A stretch of 39,134 nucleotides of DNA from Clostridia bacterium (GTDB lineage Bacteria > Bacillota > Clostridia > Oscillospirales > Acutalibacteraceae), in assembly GCA_017439545.1 (NCBI GenBank), contig JAFSIW010000064.1:1-39134 (forward strand), read 5' to 3'. The notes under the pieces are model-generated. The model saw only the letters and a list, made by a program, of their open reading frames with translations, did not search any database and had not been told where the DNA came from. Below, piece by piece: positions 23,443-38,874 of this stretch. Position numbers and translations under genes: made by a program. Every line of letters starts with the position of its first letter. The stretch's first letter is position 1.

Positions 23443-23475
23443 GTCTGTACCATTCTATGAAAGGAGTTGCCCTCG

Positions 23476-24624
23476 GTGAGTTTACGATCTCTTTGCCCTT
23501 CGTTTTTGTATCCCCTGTTGCAAAAGGGACGGGCGTTGCCCGATTTGATTCGGTTTGCCCGTTATAAAAAGCGATACACCCCCAACCCCAAGGGAATCGT
23601 GATGATCTCCCCCTCCCGACGGGAGCTTTCGGGCAACTTTGCGTTTATTGCACAAGAGCTGCAGGATTCGGAATTTACCCTGACCCTGCTGTGCGAGGGT
23701 GACGGAAAAAGCCGCGACCAACAACTGAAAATTCTTGCCCAAAACGGCATTGTTTTGCTGGACGATCATACCCCGTGGATCTATCCCCTGACCTTTGCCA
23801 AAACCACCAAGGTGGTGCAGGTGTGGCACTCCACCGGCGCATTTAAGCGGATGGGTTTTGCCCGTATGGGGCGGCGGGGCAGTACTAAGCCCCACTCGTT
23901 GACCCACCGCAATTACACCCACGTGATCGTAAGCGCCAAATCGGTCGTGCCCGCCTTTTGCGAGGCTTTTGGGCTGACGGAGGATAAGATCTATCCCATT
24001 GGCGTGCCGCGCACCGATCTGTTTTTTGATGCCGAGACCATCCAACAAATGACCGAGGCATTTTATCAGGAATATCCCCGACTGCAAGGCAAAAAGCTGG
24101 TGCTGTTTGCCCCCACCTTTCGGGGAGACACCCGTGGGGACGCCCATTATCCCAAGGAGTGGTTTGATCCTGCGGCGTTTTTGGACGCTCTGCCCGAGGA
24201 CTACGTGCTGGGGCTGAAGCTGCATCCGTTTATTGAGGAGAAAATGCCCATTCCCGCAGGGTATGAGCATCGCATAGTGGACTTTTCGCATCTGCGGGAG
24301 ATCAACCCTCTGCTGTTTGTGACCCACACCCTGATTACCGATTATTCTTCGGTGATTTTTGAATATGCGTTGCTGAACAAGCCCATTGTATTTTACTTGC
24401 CCGATCTGGCGCAGTATGACCGTGACCGCAGTTTCTTTTACGATTTTGAAACCTACGTGTACGGCGCTCGTTGCCACGAAAAAAGCGAATTACCCGCCGC
24501 CGTATTGAACCCCCAAGAGGGATTACAAAACAGAGACCTCTTTATGGAACGGTTTTTAGGCAGTTGTGACGGGGCATCCACCCGTCGGTTTGTGGACGGC
24601 ATTTTACGGGGGAAACCGCTATGA
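23476..24624 (+). CDS. CDP-glycerol/ribitol phosphotransferase family protein
   Basis: The 382-residue protein is the TagB/TagF catalytic domain without an N-terminal extension. Blocks are QVWHSTGAFKRMGF, IGVPRTDLFF, LFAPTFRGD, LKLHPF and ITDYSSVIFEYAL. It resembles the C-terminal part of the preceding protein closely in these blocks, so the two are paralogues. The start is the GTG at 23476, nine bases after AAGGAG (23461-23466); the TTG at 23467 is too close to that site. Short members often act as primases that add the first one or two units, but a polymerase role is not excluded. It overlaps the next gene by four bases. Confidence 0.86.
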   Translation: MSLRSLCPSFLYPLLQKGRALPDLIRFARYKKRYTPNPKGIVMISPSRRELSGNFAFIAQELQDSEFTLTLLCEGDGKSRDQQLKILAQNGIVLLDDHTPWIYPLTFAKTTKVVQVWHSTGAFKRMGFARMGRRGSTKPHSLTHRNYTHVIVSAKSVVPAFCEAFGLTEDKIYPIGVPRTDLFFDAETIQQMTEAFYQEYPRLQGKKLVLFAPTFRGDTRGDAHYPKEWFDPAAFLDALPEDYVLGLKLHPFIEEKMPIPAGYEHRIVDFSHLREINPLLFVTHTLITDYSSVIFEYALLNKPIVFYLPDLAQYDRDRSFFYDFETYVYGARCHEKSELPAAVLNPQEGLQNRDLFMERFLGSCDGASTRRFVDGILRGKPL

Positions 24625-25772
24625 TCAAAACCCTGCTGATGCTTTGTTTTCGCTTGGGACTGACGGTATGCTACCTCCCCTTTCGCCTGCTTCGTCCCAA
24701 AGATAAAGTTGTATTTTTAAGCCGACAGACCGACACCCCCTCGCTGGATTTCCGTCTGCTTGCCGATGCCATCCGCAACACCGCTCCGCAGGTGCAGGTG
24801 GTCCTGCTGTGCCGCAGGATCCCCCGCTCTCTTGGGGGCAAGATCGGCTATGGCTTTCATTTGTTCACCCAGATGTTTCATCTTGCCACCGCCCGTGCCG
24901 CCGTGGTGGACGGATACTGTATTTCCGCCTGCCTGCTTCCCCACCGCAAGCAGTTGAAGATCTTTCAGATCTGGCATGCATTGGGATTGCTGAAAAACTT
25001 CGGCTACGCCGCTCTTGACAGCAGCGAAGGCTCATCTTCTGCCACCGCCCGTGTAATGCGGATGCACAAGGGGTATCATAAAATCGTATGCTCCTCGCCC
25101 CATTTGATCCACGATATTGCCCCTTGCTACCACGCCGATCCCCGACAAATGCTGCCCTGCGGCCTGCCCCGTATGGACTATTTGCGGGATGACTCCCTGC
25201 AGTTTGAACATCGGGAACAAATTTTCCGTCATTACCCCGTTCTTGCTAACGGCAAGCCTGTGGTTTTATACGCTCCCACCTTTCGCAAGCAGGGTGCAAT
25301 TCCCCATAAGGAGCTGGCTGACGCTGTGGATCTGACCCGTTTTCATTTGATGGTCAAGCTCCACGACGGGCAGGAGCTTTTATACACCGATCAGGGCGTT
25401 TATCAATCAGCCTCGGGGCTGAGCGGCTTGGAATGGCTGTCGGTATCCCAATGGGTGGTCACCGATTATTCCGCCTTGCTGTTTGAGGCGCTGGTTGCCC
25501 AAAAGCCTGTGATTCTATATTGCTATGATTGGGAGCAATACGACCTTGCCCGCGGCTTTGGGGTGGATTACAACGCCATTCCCCTGCCCCATTGCGTTAC
25601 GCCACGGCAGGTAGCAACACAATTGACAAAGCCACAAAACAGCGATCCTGCTTTGTGTCAATTTATACAACGTCACCTGAGCGCAGAAAACTGCACAACT
25701 ACCCTGTGCTCGGCTATTTTGACCGACGGCGGACTATTGCCGTCAGACCCTATTTCCTTAGAACGGACGTGA
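24621..25772 (+). CDS. CDP-glycerol/ribitol phosphotransferase family protein (third copy)
   Basis: The 383-residue protein is the most divergent of the three. It starts with a hydrophobic amphipathic segment (about 1-22) suited to membrane attachment. It then shows QIWHALGLLKNFGY, PCGLPRMDYL, LYAPTFRKQ, MVKLHDGQ and VTDYSALLFEALV. The second catalytic block reads KLHD rather than KHHPF or KLHPF, which may point to another acceptor or role. It resembles the TagF-like proteins found beside CDP-alditol genes in capsule and choline-teichoic acid loci. ATGA overlap with the previous gene and a three-base gap to the ABC permease place it in the same operon. Confidence 0.83.
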   Translation: MIKTLLMLCFRLGLTVCYLPFRLLRPKDKVVFLSRQTDTPSLDFRLLADAIRNTAPQVQVVLLCRRIPRSLGGKIGYGFHLFTQMFHLATARAAVVDGYCISACLLPHRKQLKIFQIWHALGLLKNFGYAALDSSEGSSSATARVMRMHKGYHKIVCSSPHLIHDIAPCYHADPRQMLPCGLPRMDYLRDDSLQFEHREQIFRHYPVLANGKPVVLYAPTFRKQGAIPHKELADAVDLTRFHLMVKLHDGQELLYTDQGVYQSASGLSGLEWLSVSQWVVTDYSALLFEALVAQKPVILYCYDWEQYDLARGFGVDYNAIPLPHCVTPRQVATQLTKPQNSDPALCQFIQRHLSAENCTTTLCSAILTDGGLLPSDPISLERT

Positions 25773-25775
25773 ATT

Positions 25776-26600
25776 ATGCTTTCGGTATGCAAGCGGATCC
25801 TGCGGGATCACACACACAATCTGAGTCAGATCTTGAAGCTGGCAAAAGCCGATCTGGTCAAGACCTATCGGGGCGCCGCTCTGGGCTGGTCCTGGGCGGT
25901 GATCAAGCCCTGCGTGACACTGTTCACCTATTGGTTTGCCCTGAGCTTTGGTTTTCGCAGTAACACCCCCATCACCGTGGGGGACAATACCTATGCCTTC
26001 TTTTTGTGGCTGGTGCTGGGCATTACCCCTTGGTTTTATATGAACGATATGCTGGTGGCAGGTACCGAAAGCATTCGCAAATACAAGTATTTGGTCACCA
26101 AAATGAAATTTCCCGTTTCGGTCATCCCCACCTTTGTCAGCGTATCGAAGCTGATGGTCAATCTGGTACTGCTGTTGGTAGTGATGATCCTGTTTTGGGC
26201 AAGCGGTCACGCACCTACCCTTTATTGGGTACAACTGCCTGTGTATATCGGCTTTTCCTTTGCCTTTTTTACCCTTTGGGCGCAGTTTGCCTCTCTGCTT
26301 GCCGCCATCAGTCAGGATTTTCTCAATCTGGTCAAGGCATTTATTACCCCGCTGTTCTGGCTGTCGGGCATTATTTGGCGGGCCGATACCCTCCACGAAC
26401 ACCCCTTGATCCAATGGTTTTTGCGGCTGAATCCCGTCACCTATCTGGTGAACGGTTTTCGCAATTGTATGATATTTGAGCGCTGGTTTTTTGAGACGCC
26501 GCTGGAAACGGGCATCTTTATGGGCTGGCTTGTGTTGCTGTGGATCTTGTCTTTGTGGGCGTACAAACGCTTGCGCAAGGACATTCCCGACGTGTTGTAA
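25776..26600 (+). CDS. Polysaccharide/teichoic acid ABC exporter permease (TagG-like)
   Basis: The 274-residue protein has six hydrophobic segments and the ABC-2 permease pattern. An amphipathic start includes the conserved LAKADLVKTYRGAALGWSWAVIKP, the typical interfacial segment of TagG/Wzm proteins. LTPLFWLSGIIW-like (ITPLFWLSGIIW) and RLNPVTYLVNGFRNCM mark the C-terminal half. Together with the ATPase at 26613 it would move the finished undecaprenyl-linked polymer across the membrane. The start codon comes three bases after the previous stop, so translation is probably coupled. Confidence 0.9.
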   Translation: MLSVCKRILRDHTHNLSQILKLAKADLVKTYRGAALGWSWAVIKPCVTLFTYWFALSFGFRSNTPITVGDNTYAFFLWLVLGITPWFYMNDMLVAGTESIRKYKYLVTKMKFPVSVIPTFVSVSKLMVNLVLLLVVMILFWASGHAPTLYWVQLPVYIGFSFAFFTLWAQFASLLAAISQDFLNLVKAFITPLFWLSGIIWRADTLHEHPLIQWFLRLNPVTYLVNGFRNCMIFERWFFETPLETGIFMGWLVLLWILSLWAYKRLRKDIPDVL

Positions 26601-26612
26601 GGAGGAGCGAGG

Positions 26613-27350
26613 ATGGAACAAAAAACGGTCATTCGCTTTTCAAACGTAAGCAAGGTATACTACCTATACAAAAGCAATAAGCAACGCCTGCTGGGCACCC
26701 TGTTCGGGCACAAAAAGTGCAAGCAAAAACGAGCGGTGGATCGCCTCTCCTTTGAAATCAAGCAAGGGGAAGCCATTGCCTTTTTGGGGCGAAACGGCGC
26801 AGGAAAATCCACCATTTTGAAGATGATCACAGGGGTGGCGTTCCCCACGGCGGGAGACGTGTTTGTAGACGGTCGGGTAGGCGCGCTGCTGGAACTTTCG
26901 GCAGGGTTTGACCCCGAATTCACCGGCAGAGAAAACATTTACCTCAAGGGGCATATTCTGGGACTGCACCAAAGCGAGATCGCCGCGCTGGAGCCCGCCA
27001 TTATTGAATTTGCCGATCTGGGAGACTATCTGGACCAGCCGGTGCGTACCTATTCCAGCGGGATGAAGGCGCGTCTTGGCTTTTCCATCAACGTGAATAT
27101 TCAGCCGGATATTCTGATTGTGGACGAGGCCCTCAGCGTGGGGGACGAGGAGTTTAAAAAGAAGTGTATCACCCGCATCAATCAGCTGATCAACCATCAC
27201 GGCATCACCCTGATGTTTGTTACCCACTCCATTTCTCTTGCTAAGGCGTTTTGCAAGCGGGGCATTGTAATGAACAACGGACGCGCGATGTACGACGGCC
27301 CCATTGAGGAGGCAATCTTACGGTATAACGCCCTGATCGTCAAAACATAA
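26613..27350 (+). CDS. Polysaccharide/teichoic acid ABC exporter ATPase (TagH-like)
   Basis: The 245-residue ATPase has Walker A GRNGAGKST, the signature YSSGMKARLGFS (the exporter-type SGM variant), Walker B DILIVDEALSVGD and the switch FVTHS. The YLYKSNKQRLLG segment near residue 14 is typical for TagH/Wzt/RfbE proteins. There is no C-terminal carbohydrate-binding or SH3-like extension, so it is the short form. AAGGAGGAG lies upstream of the ATG. It is the last gene of the polymer operon. Confidence 0.92.
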   Translation: MEQKTVIRFSNVSKVYYLYKSNKQRLLGTLFGHKKCKQKRAVDRLSFEIKQGEAIAFLGRNGAGKSTILKMITGVAFPTAGDVFVDGRVGALLELSAGFDPEFTGRENIYLKGHILGLHQSEIAALEPAIIEFADLGDYLDQPVRTYSSGMKARLGFSINVNIQPDILIVDEALSVGDEEFKKKCITRINQLINHHGITLMFVTHSISLAKAFCKRGIVMNNGRAMYDGPIEEAILRYNALIVKT

Positions 27351-27614: not shown

Positions 27615-28844
27615 ATGAACAAACAAGACATCAAAAAAGTCGTACTTGCCTATTCCGGCGGGTTAGACACGTCCATCATCATTCCCTGGTTGAAAGAAAA
27701 TTACAACAACTGCGAAGTTATCGCCGTTTCGGGGAACGTGGGCCAAGCCGATGAGTTGGAAGGTTTGGAAGAAAAGGCCATTAAGACCGGCGCTTCCAAA
27801 TGCTACATTGAAGACTTGACCGAAGACTTTGTGAACGATTTCATCATCCCCACCGTAAAGGCAGGGGCTATGTATGAACAATATATGCTGGGTACTTCCT
27901 TCGCCCGTCCCATCATTGCCAAGCGCATTGTAGAGATCGCCAAGGCCGAAGGTGCCGACGCAATCTGCCACGGTTGCACCGGTAAAGGCAACGACCAAGT
28001 TCGTTTTGAACTGGCCATCAAGGCATTCGCTCCCGATATGCCCATCATCGCTCCCTGGCGGGAATGGACCATCAAATCCCGTGAAGAAGAGATCGCCTAT
28101 GCCGAAGCCCACAACATCCCCTTAAAGATCACCCGTGAAACCAACTATTCCAAAGACAAGAATATGTGGCACTTGAGCCACGAAGGCTTGGATCTGGAAG
28201 ATCCCGGTAACGAGCCCACCTATGAAAAGAAGGGCTTCCTTGAAATGGGCGTGTCCCCCATCGACGCTCCCGACGCTCCCACCTACATCACGTTGGACTT
28301 TGAACAAGGTGTTCCGGTTGCTCTCAACGATGAAAAGCTGTCCGCCAAAGAGATCATTCTCAAGCTCAACGAGCTGGGCGGCGCTAACGGCATCGGACTT
28401 TTGGATATCGTAGAAAACCGCTTGGTTGGTATGAAATGCCGCGGCGTTTACGAAACTCCCGGCGGCGCTATTCTGTACAAAGCCCTGAACGTGCTGGAAA
28501 CCTTGTGTCTGGACAAATATGCCGCTCACAAAAAGCAAGAACTGTCGGTCACCTTTGCCGATCTGGTTTACAACGGTCAATGGTTCACCCCCCTGCGGGA
28601 AGCTCTCTCGGCTTTTGTTGACGTGCTGATGAAAAACTGCACCGGTAAAGTTCGCCTGAAACTGTACAAAGGCAATATGATCAACGCCGGCGTATGGAGT
28701 CCCTATTCTCTGTACGATCCCGAAATCGCCACCTTTGACGAAGACGAGGTTTACAACCAAGCCGACGCGACCGGCTTTATCAACCTGTTCGGTTTGCCCA
28801 TTGAAGTGCAAGCCAGAGCCAATCAAAAAAACGAAAACAAGTAA
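27615..28844 (+). CDS. argG: Argininosuccinate synthase
   Basis: The 409-residue protein condenses citrulline and aspartate with ATP to argininosuccinate. It has the N-type ATP pyrophosphatase loop [15 protein letters not shown] and the family stretches [29 protein letters not shown] and [11 protein letters not shown]. Its length is normal. CGGAGG sits nine bases before the ATG. It is the first gene of the operon driven by the promoter at 27533, and argH follows after 11 bases. Confidence 0.97.
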
Positions 28845-28855
28845 GGTTTTAAACT

Positions 28856-30232
28856 ATGAGCGATAAAATGTGGGCAGGCCGCTTTGCCAAAGCCCTTGAT
28901 AAGCAAGCCGACGACTTTAACTCTTCCATTCACTTTGACTGCAAAATGTTCCGTCAGGACATTCGTGGCTCTATGGCCCACGCCGCTATGTTAGGGGCGC
29001 AGGGAATCATATCCCAAAGTGACAGCGAGCAGATCATTGCCACGCTGGAAGAAATTTTAAAGGACATGGAAAGCGGCGCTACCCCCATTGATATGGACGC
29101 AGAAGATATCCATATGTTCGTGGAAGCGGAGCTCACCCGTCGCATCGGCGACGTGGGCAAGCGGTTACACACCGCCCGTAGCCGCAACGATCAGGTTGCG
29201 GTGGACATTCGCCTGTATTTGCGGGACGAAGCCGCCGAAGTGGTGGATCTGCTGAAAAAGTTGCTTTTGGCCATCACAAGTCAGGCGAAAGAGCACAAGC
29301 AAACCATTATGCCCGGCTACACCCACCTGCAACGGGCGCAACCCATCACCTTTGCTCATCATCTGATGGCCTACGCTATGATGTTCACCCGTGACATCAC
29401 CCGAGTGGAAGATGCCGTCAAGCGGATGAACGTCTCTCCTCTCGGCTCCTGCGCCTTGGCAGGGACAACCTATCCCACCAACCGAGAAATGACCGCAAAA
29501 GATTTGGGGTTTGACGGCATTATGCTCAACTCCATTGACGGGGTGTCCGACCGTGACTTTTGCGTGGAACTGATGAGCGCCTTTGCTCTCATTATGACCC
29601 ATCTGTCCCGCTTGTCCGAAGAGATCATTTTGTGGTCTTCTTGGGAGTTCAAGTTTGTGGAGCTGGATGACAGCTACACCACGGGATCGTCCATTATGCC
29701 CCAAAAGAAGAACTCCGATATGGCGGAACTGATTCGGGGCAAGACCGGTCGGGTGTACGGTGATCTGATGGGCTTGCTCACCACCTTAAAAGGTATTCCC
29801 CTTGCCTACAACAAGGATATGCAAGAGGATAAAGAGGCCATCTTCGACAGTCTGGAAACGGTGAAGAAATGTCTTTCCATTGCCGCTCCCATGATCGAAA
29901 CTATGAAAGCCATTCCTGCCAATATGCGCAAAGCCGCACAGGAAGGGTTTATCAACGCCACCGACCTGGCGGAATATTGGGTGAAAAAGGGACTCCCCTT
30001 CCGCAGTGCTTATAAGATCGTAGGACAGATCGTTGCCCTGTGCATTGAAAAGCATACCGTGCTGGAAGATTTGCCCTTGTGCGAATATCAGACCTTCAGC
30101 GATTTGTTTGCCGACGATCTGTATGAAGCCATCTCTCTTGCAACCTGCACCTTCTCCCGCACCAGCGCGGGCGGTCCCTCGGTGGCATCTTTGGATGCAC
30201 AACTTTGCTACGTGGCAAAGTTTTGTGAATAA
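28856..30232 (+). CDS. argH: Argininosuccinate lyase
   Basis: The 458-residue protein splits argininosuccinate into arginine and fumarate. MWAGRF at the start, TARSRNDQV, GYTHLQRAQP and the fumarase/aspartase superfamily signature GSSIMPQKKN (catalytic serine loop) are all present, and the length is normal. The ribosome binding site is weak (GTAAGG), so it is probably translated by coupling to argG. Confidence 0.97.
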   Translation: MSDKMWAGRFAKALDKQADDFNSSIHFDCKMFRQDIRGSMAHAAMLGAQGIISQSDSEQIIATLEEILKDMESGATPIDMDAEDIHMFVEAELTRRIGDVGKRLHTARSRNDQVAVDIRLYLRDEAAEVVDLLKKLLLAITSQAKEHKQTIMPGYTHLQRAQPITFAHHLMAYAMMFTRDITRVEDAVKRMNVSPLGSCALAGTTYPTNREMTAKDLGFDGIMLNSIDGVSDRDFCVELMSAFALIMTHLSRLSEEIILWSSWEFKFVELDDSYTTGSSIMPQKKNSDMAELIRGKTGRVYGDLMGLLTTLKGIPLAYNKDMQEDKEAIFDSLETVKKCLSIAAPMIETMKAIPANMRKAAQEGFINATDLAEYWVKKGLPFRSAYKIVGQIVALCIEKHTVLEDLPLCEYQTFSDLFADDLYEAISLATCTFSRTSAGGPSVASLDAQLCYVAKFCE

Positions 30233-30257: not shown

Positions 30258-30282
30258 AAAATGAAAAAAGGAGTAAATGAAA

Positions 30283-31098
30283 ATGAAACAATTTGCAAAA
30301 GTTCTCTCTCTTGTTATGGCGATTTGCCTGTGCCTGAGCTTTGTTGCCTGCACCGGCGGCGAAACCGTAACCAACACCGACACGTCTGACAAGCTGATCA
30401 TGGCTACCAACGCTGCATTCCCTCCCTATGAATACAAAGAGGGTGACGGCTATGCCGGTATTGACGTAGAAATTGCCGGCCTGATTGCCGAAAAATTGGG
30501 CAAAGAATTGGTCATTGAAGACGTTGACTTCGGCGCCATCATCGGCGGCGTACAAACCGGCAAATACGATATGGGTATGGCCGGTATGACCGTGACCGAC
30601 GAACGGAAACAAAGCGTTAACTTCTCCAACACCTACGCCACCGGTATTCAATCGGTTATCGTAACTGCCGACAGTTCCGTTGCTTCTTTTGAAGATTTCT
30701 ACACCGGCTTTGATGCCGAAGGCAATCCCACCGGCGTAAAAGACGGCGTGAAGATCGGCGTTCAACAAGACACCACCGGCGATATCTATTCTTCTGATAA
30801 ACCCGAAAAATGGGGCTTTGGTGAAGATAACGTAATTCGCTACAAAACCGGTGCCGACGCGGTGCAAGCGCTGAAAACCGGCAAGGTTTCTGCCGTGATC
30901 ATCGACAATGAGCCCGCTAAATCCTTTGTTGCTTCTACCGACGGTCTGAAGATTCTGGACGGCGAATATGCCAACGAAGAGTATGCCATTTGCGTTGCCA
31001 AGGAAGATACCCAACTGCTGGCTGACATCAACAAAGCGCTGGATGAACTGACCAAGGAAGGCAAGATCCAAGCCATTATCGACAAGTACATCAAGTAA
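30283..31098 (+). CDS. Amino acid ABC transporter substrate-binding lipoprotein
   Basis: The protein has 271 residues from the ATG at 30283. An ATG at 30277 would add two residues but lies only three bases from AAAGGAG. The N-terminus is a lipoprotein signal with lipobox LSFVAC, so the mature protein is anchored at the outer face of the membrane. The rest is a type 3 solute-binding protein (SBP_bac_3): ATNAAFPPYEY, GIDVEIAGLIAEKLG, GMTVTDERKQSVNFS with the ligand-carboxylate-binding arginine, and a C-terminal YIK. This family takes up polar and basic amino acids. Its place inside the arginine operon suggests arginine, ornithine or citrulline as ligand. Confidence 0.93.
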   Translation: MKQFAKVLSLVMAICLCLSFVACTGGETVTNTDTSDKLIMATNAAFPPYEYKEGDGYAGIDVEIAGLIAEKLGKELVIEDVDFGAIIGGVQTGKYDMGMAGMTVTDERKQSVNFSNTYATGIQSVIVTADSSVASFEDFYTGFDAEGNPTGVKDGVKIGVQQDTTGDIYSSDKPEKWGFGEDNVIRYKTGADAVQALKTGKVSAVIIDNEPAKSFVASTDGLKILDGEYANEEYAICVAKEDTQLLADINKALDELTKEGKIQAIIDKYIK

Positions 31099-31112
31099 GT
31101 TGTTTAACCTAC

Positions 31113-31151
31113 GACCTCATTCCGAAGGAGGCTCTCCTTCGGAACGAGGTC
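31113..31151. repeat. Strong hairpin between binding-protein and permease genes
   Basis: GACCTCATTCCGAAGGAG pairs with CTCCTTCGGAACGAGGTC around a GCT loop: 17 of 18 positions pair and only one A/C mismatch is seen. No T tail follows. Such hairpins lower expression of the downstream transporter genes relative to the binding protein by stabilising the upstream mRNA or by partial termination. Confidence 0.75.
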
Positions 31152-31240
31152 ATTGTACTGTATATTGCTTCATTTTTACCCCTGCTGTTTCAGCCGTTTT
31201 TCCTTTTTTCAACGGCATATCTGTATGAAGGAGATTCGTT

Positions 31241-31975
31241 ATGACCGAATGGTTTGAAAAATTTAAAGCGGATTTCGTCTTGAACTTTTTGGATGACGAC
31301 CACTGGATGTGGCTGCTGGAAGGGTTGGGCCAAACCTTGCTCATCACCTTTTTCGCCGTACTGCTTGGCATTGCCATCGGTGTGGTGATCGCCATCATCC
31401 GTTCTACCTTTGACAAAAACCGTGAGACCTTAAAGGCCCGCAATCGGTTTACATATGGCCTGCTGGCCTTTTTTAACGCCATCTGCAATATTTATCTTAC
31501 GGTCATCCGCGGCACCCCCGTGGTGGTTCAGCTGATGATCATGTACTTTGTTATTTTCGCCTCCTCCACCAACGGAACCATGGTTGCCGTGCTGGCATTC
31601 GGTATCAACTCCGGTGCTTACGTGGCCGAGATCTTCCGCAGTGGTATTATGGCCATTGACAAAGGTCAGTTTGAAGCCGGTCGCAGTCTGGGCTTTAACT
31701 ACATTCAGACCATGATCTACATTGTGGTCCCCCAAATGTTTAAAGTGGTACTGCCCACCCTGTGCAACGAGTTTATCGTTCTGCTCAAAGAGACCTCTAT
31801 TGCCGGCTACGTTGGCATTGAGGATCTGACCAAGGCGGGCGACTTGATTCGCGGACGTACCTTCTCGGCCTTTATGCCGCTGATCGCCGTAGCAATCATT
31901 TATCTTGCCATTGTTATGCTGTTCACCTGGCTGGTGGGCAAATTAGAAAGGAGGCTGCGCAACAGTGACCACTGA
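31241..31975 (+). CDS. Amino acid ABC transporter permease
   Basis: The 244-residue protein has about five transmembrane segments and the HisM/GlnP pattern. [20 protein letters not shown] is near the start, followed by [20 protein letters not shown]. The cytoplasmic EAA loop [28 protein letters not shown] contacts the ATPase, and [15 protein letters not shown] follows. Only one permease is encoded, so it presumably works as a homodimer. AAGGAGATTCGTT precedes the ATG. It overlaps the ATPase gene by 11 bases. Confidence 0.94.
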
Positions 31976-32708
31976 TTCTCAACCCATCATCAAGGTAGAA
32001 AACCTGCAAAAAGCCTTTGGTGACTTAAAAGTCCTGCAAGGCATTGACATTGAAATCCAAAAAGGTGAAGTGGTGGTGGTCATCGGACCTTCCGGCTCGG
32101 GTAAATCCACCTTTTTGCGCACCCTCAACCTGCTGGAAATGCCCACCGGCGGCAAAATTATTGTGGACGGAGTGGACATTACCGACAAAAGCGCTAACGT
32201 AAATCTGCACCGTCAAAAAATGGGAATGGTGTTCCAACAGTTCAACCTGTTCCCCCATATGACGGTACTGAAAAACATGACCATCGCCCCTATGAAGCTG
32301 CTGAAAAAGTCCAAAGCCGAAGCCGAAGCAAAGGCAATGGAGTTGCTGGAAAAGGTGGGGCTTGCCGACCGTGCGGATGCCTATCCCTCTCAGCTTTCGG
32401 GCGGGCAAAAGCAACGTGTGGCAATCGTTCGGGCTTTGTGTATGGAGCCTGAGGTTATGCTGTTTGACGAGCCCACCAGCGCGCTCGACCCCGAAATGGT
32501 GGGCGAAGTGCTGGAGGTTATGAAGCAACTGGCGCGGGACAATATGACCATGGTGGTGGTCACCCACGAAATGGGCTTTGCCAAAGAAGTGGGCAGTCGG
32601 GTGGTCTTTATTGACGAAGGGGTCATTATGGAAGAAAACAACCCTGCCGAATTCTTTGAAAACCCCAAAAGCGAACGGTTGCAATCCTTCCTTGCAAAGG
32701 TTCTTTAA
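31965..32708 (+). CDS. Amino acid ABC transporter ATPase
   Basis: The 247-residue ATPase belongs to the polar amino acid (GlnQ/HisP/ArtP) group. Walker A is GPSGSGKST, the Q-loop [15 protein letters not shown], the signature [15 protein letters not shown], Walker [16 protein letters not shown], and the switch histidine is in VVTHEMGFA. The start is a GTG preceded by AAAGGAGG within the end of the permease gene. It completes the transporter formed with the two preceding genes. Confidence 0.96.
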
Positions 32709-32740: not shown

Positions 32741-33724
32741 ATGAACATCAAAGGCAGACATTACTTAAAACTGTTAGACTTTACCCCCGAGGAAATCGGC
32801 GGTCTGCTGGACTTGGCGGCCGAACTGAAAGCCAAAAAGAAGGCTGGCATTCCCCATCGGATGCACGAGGGCAAAAACATTGTGCTGATTTTTGAAAAAA
32901 CCAGCACCCGTACCCGTTGCGCCTTCGAGGTTGCCGCCCACGATCTGGGAATGGGAGTCACCTACTTAGACCCCTCCGGCTCTCAGATCGGTAAAAAAGA
33001 GTCCATTGCCGACACTGCCCGCGTGCTTGGCAGAATGTATGACGGCATTGAATACCGCGGCTACGGGCAAGCCATTGTAGAAGAATTGGCGGCCCACGCA
33101 GGGGTTCCCGTATGGAACGGTCTGACCGATGAGTTTCATCCCACCCAGATTCTGGCCGACTTTTTAACCATTAAAGAGCACTTCGGTCACTTAAAGGGCA
33201 TCAACTTTGTGTATATGGGCGACGCTCGCTTTAATATGGGCAACTCCTTAATGATCGGTTGCGCAATGATGGGGCTGAATTTCACCGCTTGCGCGCCCGA
33301 AAAATATTTCCCCGATCCCGCATTGATCGAACAAGCCAAATACTGGGCCAAACAGTCGGGCGCTACCCTCACCTTTGAGTCGGATCCCGACAAGGCGGTC
33401 AAGAACGCCAACGTGATCTACACCGACATTTGGGTGTCCATGGGCGAGCCCACCGAGATCTGGGAAGAACGCATCAACGAGCTTGCTCCTTATCAGGTCA
33501 ACGACGAGTTGATGAGCAAAGCCGCTGACAATGCGGTGTTTATGCACTGTCTGCCCTCTTATCACGATCACAAAACCACCATCGGGAAGGAAATGGGCGA
33601 AAAATTCGGCAGAGACAGCATGGAGGTTACCGACAGCGTATTTGAAGGCCCTCGCTCCATTGTGTTTGACGAAGCCGAAAACCGTATGCACACCATCAAG
33701 GCCGTTATGGCGGCCACGCTGTAA
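32741..33724 (+). CDS. argF: Ornithine carbamoyltransferase
   Basis: The 327-residue protein makes citrulline from ornithine and carbamoyl phosphate. [11 protein letters not shown] is the carbamoyl-phosphate binding loop, FHPTQ the second phosphate-side motif, [16 protein letters not shown] belongs to the ornithine domain, and HCLPSYHD carries the catalytic cysteine. Anabolic argF and catabolic arcB enzymes cannot be told apart by motif. Linkage to argG, argH and carAB, and the absence of arcA and arcC, favour biosynthesis. TTAGGAG precedes the ATG. Confidence 0.96.
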
Positions 33725-33741
33725 ATAGGGAGATGAGAACA

Positions 33742-34797
33742 ATGAGAAAAGCCTATTTAGTATTACAAGACGGCACCGTGTTTGAAGGCAAAGGCTTTGG
33801 CGCCGCCTGCGGCAACATCGGTGAGCTTGTATTTAACACCGCCGTGGTCGGCTATATTGAAAACCTGACCGATCCCGCTTATTACGGACAAATTCTGGTA
33901 CAGACCTTTCCTATGATCGGCAACTACGGCATGATCGAAGCCGACATCCAAGGCAAATGCTGTGTGAAAGGTTACGTGGTGCGGGAGTGGTGCGAAAAGC
34001 CTTCCAACTTCCGCTGTGAATACGATCTGGATACCTTCTTGAAAAATCAAGGCGTGCCCGGCATTTACGGAGTGGACACCCGTGAACTCACCCGCATTTT
34101 GCGAGACAAAGGCACCATGAACGCCATGATTACCGATACCGTTCCCCAAGACGTTGCACCCATCAAAGCCTACACCATCAGCGGCGGCGTGGAAGCCGTT
34201 ACCTGTAATGAGATTGCCACCTATCCTGCCGAAAAGGAACAGTACAAAGTGGTAATGATGGACTTTGGCGGCAAACGGTATTTGATTGACGAACTCAATA
34301 AAGTGGGTTGCACCGTAACGGTGGTACCCGCTTCTACCAAGGCTGACGAGGTTTTGGCGATGAATCCCCACGGGGTAGTGCTTTCTGCCGGTCCGGGCAA
34401 TCCTTGTGAAAACACCGCCATCATCACCGAGATCGGCAAGCTGTTCGGCAAAAAGCCGATTCTTGCCATTGGCTTGGGGCATCAGATGTTGGCCCTTTCT
34501 CAAGGCGGGCAGGTCATCAAACTGCCCCACGGTCATCGGGGCGGACAGCCTGCGAAAATGATTGGGGTGGACGCTACCTACATCACCGCCCAAAACCACG
34601 GCTATGCGGTGGTTTCTGACACGGTGGAAAACGGGGTCATCACCTTCTACAACTTAAACGACAACACCTGCGAAGGGTTGGAATATAAAGAAGCAAAAGC
34701 GATATCGGTGCAATTCAATCCCGAATCCACTTCCGGTCCTCGCAGTACCGCTTTGATCTTTGATCGCTTTGTTAACTTGATGGGAGGGAACAACTAA
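33742..34797 (+). CDS. carA: Carbamoyl-phosphate synthase small subunit, glutaminase site degenerate
   Basis: The 351-residue protein is full length and follows CarA along its whole course: the N-terminal domain with GYIENLTDPAYYGQI and IPG-like GIYGVDTRELTRILRDKG, then a class I glutamine amidotransferase domain. The amidotransferase site is altered. The nucleophile motif reads AIGLGHQ with Gly244 where active enzymes have Cys. The histidine of the triad is Asn326 in QFNPES (Glu328 kept). The oxyanion strand reads SAGPGNP instead of SNGPGDP. Glutamine hydrolysis is therefore not expected. The start at 33742 follows AGGGAG by nine bases; an ATG at 33733 lies directly on that site. Its stop overlaps the carB start by one base (TAATG). 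Confidence 0.92.
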   Translation: MRKAYLVLQDGTVFEGKGFGAACGNIGELVFNTAVVGYIENLTDPAYYGQILVQTFPMIGNYGMIEADIQGKCCVKGYVVREWCEKPSNFRCEYDLDTFLKNQGVPGIYGVDTRELTRILRDKGTMNAMITDTVPQDVAPIKAYTISGGVEAVTCNEIATYPAEKEQYKVVMMDFGGKRYLIDELNKVGCTVTVVPASTKADEVLAMNPHGVVLSAGPGNPCENTAIITEIGKLFGKKPILAIGLGHQMLALSQGGQVIKLPHGHRGGQPAKMIGVDATYITAQNHGYAVVSDTVENGVITFYNLNDNTCEGLEYKEAKAISVQFNPESTSGPRSTALIFDRFVNLMGGNN

Positions 34798-37700
34798 TGC
34801 CTTTTGATTCTTCGATTAAAAAAGTTATGGTAATCGGTTCCGGTCCTATCGTGATCGGACAAGCCGCCGAATTTGACTATGCCGGCGCTCAGGCTTGCCG
34901 TGTGCTGAAAGAAGCAGGAGTCAACGTGGTGTTGGTCAACTCCAACCCCGCCACCATTATGACTGACAAAGCCTTGGCGGATGAAATTTATCTGGAACCC
35001 TTGACGGTGGACACCATCAAGCGGATCATTATGAAAGAAAAACCCGACAGTCTGCTGGCAGGCTTGGGCGGTCAAACAGGGCTGACTCTTGCCATGCAAC
35101 TGAATAAAGAAGGCTTTTTGGAACAGCACGGTGTCCGTCTGATCGGTACCAACTGCGAAGCCATTGACAAAGCAGAAGACCGTCAGATGTTTAAAGACAC
35201 CATGGACGAGATCGGCGAGCCTTCTATCCCCTCTGACATTGCAGAAGATTTAGACACCGCTTTGGCGATTGCCGACAAAATCGGGTATCCCGTTATCGTT
35301 CGTCCCGCCTTTACCCTTGGCGGCTCGGGCGGCGGTGTTGCCAACAACGTGGAAGAACTGCGTATTGTGGCTAAAACCGGTCTGGATGCTTCGCCCATCA
35401 CCCAAATTTTGGTAGAAAAATACATCTTCGGATGGAAAGAAATTGAATTTGAAACCATGCGTGACGCCGCAGGCAACGTAATTGCGGTATGCTCGATGGA
35501 AAACTTTGACCCCGTTGGGGTGCACACCGGCGACTCCATTGTAGTTGCCCCCGCTCTGACCTTGTCAGACAAAGAATATCAAATGCTGCGCACCGCTTCT
35601 ATGAACATTGTTTCGGCTTTGGGCATTGTGGGCGGCTGTAACTGCCAATTCGCCCTCAATCCCAACAGCTTTGAGTATGCGGTAATTGAGGTAAACCCCC
35701 GTGTTTCCCGTTCCTCGGCGCTGGCTTCCAAAGCCACGGGGTATCCCATCGCCAAAATCACCACCAAGATTGCGTTGGGCTACACGCTGGACGAAATCAA
35801 AAACGATATTACAGGCAGTACTTATGCCTGCTTTGAACCCACCGTGGACTACTGCGTGGTCAAGTTCCCCAAATGGCCCTTTGAAAAATTCGTTGGCTCC
35901 AGCCGCAAACTGGGCACTCAAATGAAAGCCACGGGCGAAGTAATGTCCATTGGCAGCAGCTTTGAAATGGCCATTATGAAGGCGGTACGTGGTGCGGAAA
36001 TCTCTCTTGACACCCTCAATGCCAAGCCCACCGACGACCGTCCCTTGATGGAACGGTTGGCGGCTATGGACGATCGTCGGTTGTTTACCATTTTTGAAGC
36101 ATTGAAAGCCGGCATCGCCAAAGAAGAGATCTACAACATCACTCGCATTGATCCTTGGTTCTTAAACAAACTGCAAAATCTGTGCGATTACGAAGCCGAA
36201 ATTGCAAACGGCTTGACCGACGAGCAATATTTTGAAGGCAAGCGGTTGGGGTATCCCGACAAGGCCTTGACCCGTTTGTCCGGTCGCACCGATCTACCCT
36301 CTGCCGACGCCGTTTACAAAATGGTAGACACCTGCGCCGCCGAGTTTGACGCAGTTACCCCCTACTTCTACTCCACCTACGATTCGGCTTGTGAAGCCCG
36401 CTCCTTTAAAGACCAGCACAAAGAAACCATTATGGTTTTGGGCTCGGGTCCCATCCGCATCGGTCAAGGCATTGAGTTTGACTATTCTTCGGTGCACTGC
36501 GTGTGGAACTTAAAAGAAATGGGTTACGACGTGGTGATTGTGAACAACAACCCCGAAACCGTATCTACCGACTATGATACCGCCGACAAGCTGTATTTTG
36601 AGCCGCTGACCGAAGAAGACGTAATGAACATCATCAAGGTGGAAAAGCCCATCGGCGTGGTTGTGGCATTCGGCGGTCAGACCGCTATCAAGCTGACCCA
36701 ATTCTTGGATCAAAGCGGTATTCAAATTCTGGGCACCTCTGCCGAAGGCATTGACGTGGCCGAAGACCGTGAACGGTTTGACGCACTGTTGGAACAATTC
36801 AACATCAAACGTCCCAAGGGGATGGGCGTTGCCACGCTGGAAGAAGCCTTGGAAGCCGCCCGTGGATTGGGTTATCCCGTTTTGCTTCGCCCCTCTTACG
36901 TTATCGGCGGTCAAAACATGAAAATCGTGCACGACGACGAAGAAGTGCGGGTCTATATGGAACGGATCTTGTCCCAAGGTATTGACAATCCCGTGCTGGT
37001 GGACAAATATATGATGGGCACCGAAATTGAGGTGGACGTCATCTCCGACGGCAAAGACGTGCTCATTCCCGGTGTGATGCAACACATTGAACGGGCAGGG
37101 GTACACAGCGGTGACTCCATTGCCGTTTATCCCCCTTACAACATCAACGATAAAATGATGAAAACCGTGGTGGAATGCTCCCGTCAATTGGCGCTTGCCA
37201 TGGGCACCAAGGGTCTGGTGAACATTCAATACCTGATCTATCACAACGAACTGTACGTCATCGAGGTGAATCCCCGTGCCTCCCGTACCGTGCCTTACAT
37301 CAGCAAGGTGACGGGCGTACCGATGGTTGACCTTGCCACCCGCGTAATGATCGGCGAGCCTTTGGCCGACATGGGCTACGGCGTGGGACTGTATCGCACG
37401 CCTCCCTATTTCACCGTAAAGGTTCCCGTGTTCTCTTTTGAAAAACTCAGCGACGCCAACTCCTACTTGGGACCCGAAATGAAGTCCACCGGCGAAGTAC
37501 TGGGCATTGGTAAGACCCTGAACGAAGCCTTGTTCAAGGGGCTCACCTCCGCCGGTATGAAGATTAAGCCTTCCCTGATCGGCGGCAAGCAAACCGGTGT
37601 GTTCATCAGCGTGGACCGCTACGACCAGTTAGAGATCATCTCGCTGGCCAAAAAGCTGGACGATCTTGGCTTTAAGCTGTACGCCACTCCCGAAACCGCC

Positions 37701-38831
37701 GAATCCATCGGCAGATTGGGCATTACGGTGGAACACGTAAGCGGCATCACCAAAGAGGACAATCTGTGGCCGCTGATGGAAAACGGCGAGATCAGTTACA
37801 TTATCTACACCGGCTCGCTGATGGATTCCAACGTAAACGACTACACCAAGCTCCATCACAGAGCGCTCCACTTCTCCATTCCCTGCTTCACCTCTCTGGA
37901 TACCGCCAATGCTATGGCCGACATCATTGCCAGCCGCTTTAACCAAAGCAACACCGAACTGGTAGACATCAACCATATGCGGGAGCACCGTCAGACCCTC
38001 AACTTCTCCAAAATGGAAGCCACCGGCGACGACTATATCTTCATCAACAACATTGATGAGAAGATCACCTGCCCCGAATCGCTGTGCATCAGTTTGTGCG
38101 ACCGTCACACCGGCATCGGCGCACTGGGCATTGTTCTCATTGAGCAATCCCTGATTGCTGACGCCAAAATGCGGATGTTCAACCAAGACGGCAGCGAAGG
38201 CAAAATGGCAGGCAACTGCATCCGTTGCGTGGGTAAATATCTGTACGACAAAGGCATTGTGCTCAAAGAAGAAATGGATATTGAAACCGCCAGCGGCGTG
38301 AAACATTTGAAGCTGTACACCAGCAATAACAAGGTGACCTTGGTGAGTGTTGCCATGGGCAAAGCCAATCTGGATCCCAAGGCTCTGCCTTGCACCATTG
38401 AAGCCGATCAGCTCATCAACTACCCCACCGTCATTGGGGATAAAGAATACCATATCACCTGCGTTGGCGTGGGCAACCCCCACTGTGTGGTATTCACCGA
38501 TTATGTGGACGGCGTGAACTTAAGCGAAGTTGGTCCCTTGTTTGAAAATGCGCCCATCTTCCCCGAGCGCATCAACACCGAATTTGTTCGGGTGGTCAAT
38601 AGCACTACCCTGAAAATGCGGGTGTATGAACGGGGCAACGGCGAGACCATGGCCTGCGGCACCGGCGCTTGCGCCGCTGTGGTAGCCGCCGTAGAAAACG
38701 GCTATTGCAAAAAGGGTGTGGATATCACCGTCAAAGTCAAGGGCGGCGATCTGATCGTCAACTACACCGACGAGGGCATTACCCTCACCGGCGAAGCCAA
38801 GCTGGTCTATCGCGGCTCGTTGGAATATTGA
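34797..38831 (+). CDS. carB: Carbamoyl-phosphate synthase large subunit fused to diaminopimelate epimerase
   Basis: A single frame encodes 1344 residues, about 270 more than CarB needs. Residues 1-1068 are a complete CarB: two ATP-grasp halves (VIGSGPIVIGQAAEFDYAG at the start and VLGSGPIRIGQGIEFDYSS near residue 545), the glycine-rich loop TLGGSGGGVANN, VIEVNPRVSRSSAL and VIEVNPRASRTVPY, and a C-terminal MGS-like allosteric domain (about 945-1068). From residue 1069 the protein becomes DapF: NFSKMEATGDDYIFINN, GNPHCVVF, and YERGNGETMACGTGACA with catalytic Cys1287. The first DapF cysteine is missing: the motif reads MAGNCIRC, with Ala1138 in its place and Cys1141 at the usual glycine. The ATG at 37977 has no Shine-Dalgarno sequence, so a separate DapF start is unlikely. 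This is the last gene of the operon. Confidence 0.93.
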   Translation: MPFDSSIKKVMVIGSGPIVIGQAAEFDYAGAQACRVLKEAGVNVVLVNSNPATIMTDKALADEIYLEPLTVDTIKRIIMKEKPDSLLAGLGGQTGLTLAMQLNKEGFLEQHGVRLIGTNCEAIDKAEDRQMFKDTMDEIGEPSIPSDIAEDLDTALAIADKIGYPVIVRPAFTLGGSGGGVANNVEELRIVAKTGLDASPITQILVEKYIFGWKEIEFETMRDAAGNVIAVCSMENFDPVGVHTGDSIVVAPALTLSDKEYQMLRTASMNIVSALGIVGGCNCQFALNPNSFEYAVIEVNPRVSRSSALASKATGYPIAKITTKIALGYTLDEIKNDITGSTYACFEPTVDYCVVKFPKWPFEKFVGSSRKLGTQMKATGEVMSIGSSFEMAIMKAVRGAEISLDTLNAKPTDDRPLMERLAAMDDRRLFTIFEALKAGIAKEEIYNITRIDPWFLNKLQNLCDYEAEIANGLTDEQYFEGKRLGYPDKALTRLSGRTDLPSADAVYKMVDTCAAEFDAVTPYFYSTYDSACEARSFKDQHKETIMVLGSGPIRIGQGIEFDYSSVHCVWNLKEMGYDVVIVNNNPETVSTDYDTADKLYFEPLTEEDVMNIIKVEKPIGVVVAFGGQTAIKLTQFLDQSGIQILGTSAEGIDVAEDRERFDALLEQFNIKRPKGMGVATLEEALEAARGLGYPVLLRPSYVIGGQNMKIVHDDEEVRVYMERILSQGIDNPVLVDKYMMGTEIEVDVISDGKDVLIPGVMQHIERAGVHSGDSIAVYPPYNINDKMMKTVVECSRQLALAMGTKGLVNIQYLIYHNELYVIEVNPRASRTVPYISKVTGVPMVDLATRVMIGEPLADMGYGVGLYRTPPYFTVKVPVFSFEKLSDANSYLGPEMKSTGEVLGIGKTLNEALFKGLTSAGMKIKPSLIGGKQTGVFISVDRYDQLEIISLAKKLDDLGFKLYATPETAESIGRLGITVEHVSGITKEDNLWPLMENGEISYIIYTGSLMDSNVNDYTKLHHRALHFSIPCFTSLDTANAMADIIASRFNQSNTELVDINHMREHRQTLNFSKMEATGDDYIFINNIDEKITCPESLCISLCDRHTGIGALGIVLIEQSLIADAKMRMFNQDGSEGKMAGNCIRCVGKYLYDKGIVLKEEMDIETASGVKHLKLYTSNNKVTLVSVAMGKANLDPKALPCTIEADQLINYPTVIGDKEYHITCVGVGNPHCVVFTDYVDGVNLSEVGPLFENAPIFPERINTEFVRVVNSTTLKMRVYERGNGETMACGTGACAAVVAAVENGYCKKGVDITVKVKGGDLIVNYTDEGITLTGEAKLVYRGSLEY

Positions 38832-38840
38832 TATTCAGCA

Positions 38841-38874
38841 AAAAACCGCTATCTCGTTTGAGATAGCGGTTTTT
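38841..38874 (+). terminator. Rho-independent terminator of the arginine operon
   Basis: A perfect 15-bp stem AAAAACCGCTATCTC / GAGATAGCGGTTTTT with a four-base loop starts nine bases after the stop codon. The A and T flanks would let it work for the minus-strand gene as well. Confidence 0.93.

Follow-up and report, generated by a model that had tools for sequence, protein, structure and literature searches.

A carbamoyl-phosphate synthase fused to a diaminopimelate epimerase domain that has lost a catalytic cysteine in many Clostridia

The last gene of an arginine gene cluster in a clostridial draft genome encodes the large subunit of carbamoyl-phosphate synthase (CPS), CarB, joined in one frame to the diaminopimelate (DAP) epimerase DapF. 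The gene lies in a stretch of 39,134 nt (the window; contig JAFSIW010000064.1 of assembly GCA_017439545.1). We find that the fusion recurs in many related genomes, that its DapF domain has repeatedly lost a catalytic cysteine, as in the window, that the cysteines are retained where the lysine pathway needs the epimerase, and that the domain remains under purifying selection where the cysteine is gone. We consider it likely (probability about 0.7) that a fusion with both activities turned into a CPS bearing a pseudo-epimerase tail without catalysis, which would stabilise, oligomerise or regulate the synthase.

The uninterrupted CarB-to-DapF frame reported by the first-pass annotation of this DNA stood up to profile searches, with both enzyme profiles above cut-off (Table 1). 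The CarB part ends approximately where the CarB of unfused relatives stops, and no profile family among the matches listed for the window protein (25 of 47) describes the combined architecture. The annotation had also argued that the ATG at 37977 (residue 1061) is not an internal start. In agreement with this, a Shine-Dalgarno-like stretch precedes that position in none of the 115 readable fused genes, that is, those whose junction matched our pattern; the codon itself is ATG in 85 of them and CTG, CTT, CTC, TTA, TTG, AAG or others in the remainder. Single frames spanning approximately residues 1-1343 of the window protein recur in relatives at 95-54% identity, and the fusion is also present in two single-contig genomes (G604 and G627; G and L numbers are our labels for genomes and loci), so it is no product of binning or assembly. 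The draft that holds the window is fragmented, with 85 contigs at 87% completeness, but the same frame in 65 fused genomes, in the Ruminococcus sp. FC2018 record and in the single-contig genomes, together with a junction devoid of a start signal, strongly supports a real fusion, makes two in-frame genes or a chimeric contig virtually excluded for the window, and has already refuted such an artefact for the family.

A search for other one-chain CarB-DapF proteins returned many, in close relatives and throughout the order, class and phylum. Counting the window genome at every rank, we saw the two proteins joined in a single frame in 29 of the 60 relatives; G030 adds a fragment at the edge of its contig. 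In the order, where fusions were recognised from the length of the open frame and by inspection of the loci, the figure is 48 of 128 genomes. Counts made by hand gave at least 41 of 293 genomes of the class and 15 of 299 genomes of the phylum, two of the latter being single-contig. The best 80 loci among named GTDB records include 57 fused ones; these come from Oscillospiraceae and other Clostridia, often with rumen or gut in their titles, and from the spirochaete and Gracilibacteraceae MAGs described below, and the sole fused record without a metagenome-assembled genome (MAG) title is Ruminococcus sp. FC2018, which we take to be a cultured rumen isolate. In a 130-row CarB tree from which the MGS domain was excluded (G098, a long branch, was left out; the fused pairs G163/L167 and G112/L155 are identical), the fused proteins fall into one 116-row clade with support of 100. 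This clade also contains three unfused rows (G038, G040 and G055). A 47-row CarB tree for the 60-genome set places G040 beside the fused clade, as its sister, and not within it, so two losses of the tail are firm and the third is unsure. The fusion is old and has been kept across many related lineages. A further fusion in G036 (L026) has a different, longer junction, keeps both cysteines, lies outside the fused clade in both trees and looks independent of the main one.

The arrangement of unfused genes bears on the origin of the fusion. In unfused relatives carA-carB lies beside dapF-dapL. At three loci (L061, L059 and L051) carB and dapF share a strand with 2 to 63 nt between them, although the carBs of these loci come from a more distant branch of the CarB tree. 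The fusion most likely arose in a carA-carB-dapF-dapL group when the stop codon separating the two neighbours was lost. The G036 genome, besides its own fusion, also has a carB-dapF-dapL gene row (L061). A literature search of PubMed Central listings found no paper on a CarB-DapF fusion; the available part of one article discusses DapF variants in gut genomes and does not mention this fusion there (PMC9026213).

The DapF domain of the window is full-length, as first annotated; its catalytic site is not intact. The window reads KMAGNCIRC at the position of CGN in solved DapFs, so that alanine occupies the place of the first catalytic cysteine (Cys73), whereas the second (Cys217) is retained, as are the E/R pair and the oxyanion residues. 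For residues other than Cys73 the H. influenzae numbering is presumed. Seven of eight binding residues are kept, and the first Asn is an Asp, when the correspondence to C. glutamicum numbering is assigned by order along the chain. Excerpts of a study of C. glutamicum DapF report that Ala at either catalytic cysteine almost abolished activity and that Ala at any of the eight binding residues (five Asn, Glu, Arg and Thr) left the enzyme nearly dead (PMC5296763). By analogy with these mutants of another DapF, the window domain would have lost its epimerase activity.

This loss is widespread among fused domains. In our alignment 77 of 78 separate DapFs (the fetched part of the order-sample dapFs) have Cys73, versus 24 of 65 fused domains, where G001, with its fused gene split across two contigs, was scored by the C-terminal piece. 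The sole separate DapF without Cys73 is that of G030, which begins at the edge of a contig and is probably a truncated fusion. Fused rows without Cys73 (hereafter Cys-less) carry Ala (29), Gly (6), Phe (3) or Ser (3), and in the partly overlapping named set Cys73 is present in 21 of 57 fused rows. Altogether, 43 of the 65 fused rows lack a catalytic cysteine. The replacing residue varies by lineage (A, G, S, F, T or D), and the residue at this position changes at least 19 times on the 130-row tree. Sequencing error was rejected as the cause because of the many genomes and varied residues. We also rejected a compensating cysteine three residues on (AGNC in the window), since other Cys-less rows have S, A, G or N there. 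Three genomes (G604, G627 and G670; loci L236, L238 and L240) have lost both cysteines, with Ser and Ala instead, and G604 and G627 have an additional separate, intact dapF; in these two single-contig genomes the Ser and Ala are thus no sequencing error. The fusion was also seen in three spirochaete MAGs (L197, L201 and L206) and two Gracilibacteraceae MAGs (L216 and L230), all of them Cys-less.

Whether a fused domain keeps its cysteines can largely be predicted from what else the genome encodes. Ddh or a separate dapF is present in 39 of 44 fused genomes that have lost the cysteine and in 13 of 22 that have kept it. DapL makes LL-DAP, so we added it, and the association became sharper with need for the fused epimerase defined as DapL present and no separate dapF. 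Among the 60 relatives both cysteines are kept in 8 of 8 need genomes, and one is lost in 20 of the 22 others (the G030 fragment included). The rule was fixed before it was applied to another 36 fused genomes from the order sample, for which cysteines and separate dapFs were known beforehand and only DapL was new; both cysteines are kept in 7 of 8 need genomes there and one is lost in 23 of 28 others. Pooled, 15 of 16 need genomes keep both and 43 of 50 others have lost one, with Fisher p values, which ignore shared ancestry, of 8e-6 for the relatives, 6e-4 for the further genomes and 9e-9 for the pool. Cysteine retention follows pathway need.

The window organism falls on the side where the fused epimerase is not needed. 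Its genome encodes Ddh, LysA and a MurE with the DNPR motif, a mark of meso-DAP specificity. As the first-pass annotation had proposed, we looked for a separate dapF, and none was found in this 87% complete genome, nor was a DapL above cut-off; the same two negatives hold for four same-genus genomes, three of which have Ddh (the fourth, G001, is 90% complete). With Ddh present and neither DapL nor a second dapF found, meso-DAP probably comes from Ddh, which would leave the fused domain without an epimerase job. The earlier suggestion that the fusion ties cell-wall precursor supply to carbamoyl phosphate finds no support in the window, where the DapF lacks a catalytic cysteine and Ddh can give meso-DAP. 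A simple bifunctional enzyme was rejected for this genome by the missing cysteine, and a bifunctional link of this kind fits other lineages better. With a single CarB found in the window genome, this CPS probably supplies both the arginine and the pyrimidine pathway.

The Cys-less tail is nevertheless conserved. In the 60-genome set, for which CarBs were also found by their CarB part, the window's clade comprises 14 CarB rows, of which 13 are fused, all Cys-less, and one has no tail. Column conservation was scored with identical domains counted once and without the G030 fragment and L136 (a degenerate dapF copy in G109, separate from its fusion). Conservation reaches 95% or more in 45 columns, both among Cys-kept fused DapFs and among separate ones; 40 of these columns remain at 90% or above in the Cys-less clade, and only at the catalytic cysteine has the ancestral residue wholly gone. 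Scored active-site columns are 92-100% conserved in that clade, with the exception of the cysteine and columns 1078, 1110 and 1137; the second catalytic cysteine survives in 96% and the Asn of column 1078, Asp in the window, in only 59%. The ratio of nonsynonymous to synonymous substitution rates (dN/dS) of the Cys-less domain is 0.01-0.34 in 10 usable of 11 pairs, rough values given several high dS, and similar to the 0.03-0.28 of separate dapF pairs (6 usable).

These observations suggest the following history. Once the neighbouring carB and dapF had been fused by stop loss, the fused domain would have been a working epimerase in lineages with DapL and no other dapF, as the retained active site and the pathway need imply. 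Where another source of meso-DAP existed (Ddh or a second dapF), the epimerase would have been switched off through cysteine loss several times independently, in the window's clade by replacement with Ala or a different small residue. Purifying selection would then have preserved the tail, including most of the remaining active-site residues. The window protein would thus be a CPS large subunit for arginine, and probably pyrimidines, with a pseudo-epimerase in a non-catalytic role at the end of its allosteric domain.

Several results weigh against this history. The need rule has eight exceptions (G062, G036, G057, G087, G154, G109, G111 and G079); in G062 no separate dapF was found, yet two congeners have one, in G109 the second dapF copy is degenerate, and in G079 the second cysteine position is not covered. 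Two fusions (L070 of G041 and L111 of G143) keep Cys73 without Cys217 in genomes where no DapL, Ddh or other dapF was found. All tests of the association are uncorrected for phylogeny save one pair test on the looser trait of Ddh or dapF, which had three usable pairs and showed nothing. The synteny of dapL is mixed. Among the 60 relatives, 7 of 8 need genomes have dapL at a distance of 0.8-2.5 kb from the fusion, and where a genome has both dapL and a separate dapF the two lie at most 2.2 kb apart in 8 of 9 cases. In the order sample, dapL and the fusion are close to each other in only 1 of 8 need genomes and on different contigs in the rest, and the distance from dapL to a separate dapF is at most 2.2 kb in 11 of 15. 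In Ruminococcus sp. FC2018, whose fusion keeps both cysteines, dapL starts about 20 nt after the fusion; in G068 and G133 dapL lies 1.1-1.2 kb from a Cys-less fusion. The tail is present in 52 of 53 rows of the window's clade in the 130-row tree, a figure inflated because most added loci were found via their DapF part, and the nested lineages of G055 and G038 (G040 being unsure) have lost it, so the tail is dispensable there. Finally, the tail-to-CarB ratio of dN/dS is 1.5-3.7 in 9 of 10 usable Cys-less pairs (median about 2.3) and 0.3-1.9, typically about 1.2, in Cys-kept pairs (5 usable of 8), with a Mann-Whitney p of 0.019 for pairs that share genomes. Such faster relative evolution means that part of the apparent constraint may be slow decay; constraint on the Cys-less tail is relaxed yet present. 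In G015 (L068, 7178-8773) a CTP synthase gene (pyrG) lies between the fusion and dapL.

These points leave room for a reading, improbable though to be taken seriously, in which the tail is trapped baggage: redundant and merely decaying, and kept since its partial loss would give a misfolded C-terminus that harms CarB. The faster evolution of Cys-less tails relative to CarB, the two or three tail losses and the different cysteine replacements across lineages are all consistent with this. However, baggage sits poorly with a tail in 13 of 14 CarBs of the Cys-less clade, with active-site columns as conserved as those scored above and with tail dN/dS within the range of separate dapF, and a clean loss at the junction is possible, as in G055.

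A pseudo-epimerase tail that regulates CPS could act as an effector sensor, a special case of the preferred reading that we regard as rather unlikely in its own right: the Cys-less pocket would bind DAP or a similar amino acid, signal through the MGS domain and replace nucleotide control. The tail does sit directly behind the CarB allosteric domain, as was first annotated, and most substrate-pocket residues are conserved. In the window's clade the canonical MGS motifs ISTSxKGR...DSVKIRR and KIHE are replaced, in the window by YIIYTGSLMDSNVNDYTKLHHRAL, a change compatible with a regulatory role though no proof of it. By eye, the stretch with these motifs appears to hold the UMP-site Thr977 of E. 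coli CarB. A pattern search finds the effector motifs in none of the 50 rows of the window's Cys-less clade and the phosphate-loop pattern in 41 of 43 Cys-kept rows; the canonical nucleotide-effector motif is not defining for all CarBs. In E. coli CPS, uridine monophosphate (UMP), inosine monophosphate (IMP) and ornithine bind the C-terminal domain, and Thr977 and Lys993 are described as important for UMP in the excerpts available (PMC6245113). An altered control input beside a dead enzyme pocket hints at a sensor, although a structural role or slow decay remain alternatives. Against a sensor, Asn1078 is Asp in the window, and the corresponding C. glutamicum Ala mutant is reported as nearly dead. 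The phosphate-loop pattern is moreover kept in 19 of 23 other Cys-less rows, so that MGS loss and cysteine loss are unlinked outside the window's clade. The most specific form of the idea, slightly more speculative still, is that a redundant DAP pocket was kept to report DAP or a look-alike to the remodelled allosteric domain in place of UMP and IMP. If so, the level of a cell-wall precursor would set the supply of arginine and pyrimidine precursors in these gut bacteria.

We regard it as very unlikely that the domain is still an active or altered enzyme, using one-cysteine catalysis or one-base chemistry on another substrate. The second catalytic cysteine persists in most of the Cys-less clade, and the DapF fold carries out other racemisations (an O-ureido-serine racemase in the PDB; a histidine racemase, PMC11602996). 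However, the same source, as far as it was available, reports that histidine racemase loses most turnover if either cysteine is changed; additionally, the replacing residue is not uniform, being Phe in one group, and G604, G627 and G670 have lost both cysteines.

The small subunit has changed as well. The window CarA has Gly/Asn/Glu at the glutaminase triad positions versus Cys/His/Glu (triad numbering as we presume it to be), and the glutaminase Cys is absent from 16 of 81 CarA frames of the fetched loci, including those of Ruminococcus sp. FC2018 (L180), L154, L161 and L011. This pattern of residues suggests a repeated change to a putatively ammonia-dependent CPS. All CPS types except CPS1 are said to use glutamine in the part of the source available (PMC4655335).

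Compared with known systems, the fusion shares with CarB (TIGR01369) the full architecture, the carA operon partner and a nearby argF, and differs from it in the roughly 276-residue DapF domain that follows the MGS domain and in the effector motifs replaced in its clade. From DapF (TIGR00652), whose full-length domain (267 bits), second cysteine, E/R pair and oxyanion residues it shares, it differs in having Ala for the first cysteine and Asp for one binding Asn and in being fused to CarB. Vertebrate CPS1 is likewise a CPS chain that retains a dead ancestral enzyme domain, but there it is the N-terminal glutaminase and here the C-terminal epimerase; CPS1 is described as switched through its C-terminal domain (PMC4655335, excerpts). 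The bifunctional DapF/glutamate racemase (NF038284) is also a DapF variant with a second role, yet the window protein scores only 104.9 bits against that profile, with a cut-off of 350.

One gene family thus provides a natural series in which an enzyme of a foreign pathway was fused, inactivated several times where unneeded and mostly still kept, which turns the persistence of dead enzyme domains into a testable question. Annotation by profile alone would read diaminopimelate epimerase despite the many fused rows without a catalytic cysteine, and errors would follow in metabolic models of bacteria from gut and rumen. Regulation of CPS by the tail, if it occurs, would add a new kind of control where the arginine and pyrimidine pathways branch.

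Table 1. Features of the fusion gene and its surroundings in the window.
Feature	Position	Strand	Details
CarB-DapF fusion gene, one frame	34797..38831	+	ATG start, 1344 aa, 0 internal stops
CarB part, residues 1-1060	34797..37976	+	two ATP-grasp halves and MGS-like allosteric domain; TIGR01369 1399.4 bits (cut-off 1027), residues 4-1042
MGS-like allosteric domain, residues 946-1032	37632..37892	+	canonical motifs replaced
DapF domain, residues 1069-1343	38001..38825	+	TIGR00652 266.8 bits (cut-off 114.65)
Asp1078	38028..38030	+	replaces the substrate-binding Asn of separate DapF (taken as N15 of C. glutamicum)
Ala1138	38208..38210	+	replaces first catalytic cysteine (Cys73 type; taken as Cys83 of C. 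glutamicum)
Cys1287	38655..38657	+	second catalytic cysteine (Cys217 type), retained
carA, small-subunit partner	33733..34797	+	TIGR01368 368.5 bits (cut-off 307.35)
argF, ornithine carbamoyltransferase	32741..33724	+
Polar amino-acid ATP-binding cassette (ABC) transporter	30277..32708	+	binding protein 30277-31098, permease 31241-31975, ATPase 31965-32708 (identified by eye from motifs, no profile scan)
argG and argH	27615..30232	+	argG 27615-28844, argH 28856-30232
Intrinsic-terminator-like hairpin with U tail	38841..38874	+	directly after fusion gene

The fusion gene is the last in the order argG, argH, amino-acid ABC transporter, argF, carA, carB-dapF. The hairpin that follows it is not among the results of a consensus scan; the 51-nt stretch has a folding energy of -25 kcal/mol (z -7.9). 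Upstream of the arginine genes, at 23467-27350, the window encodes teichoic-acid-type polymerase-like proteins and a Wzm/TagH-like exporter, with scores below the curated cut-offs.

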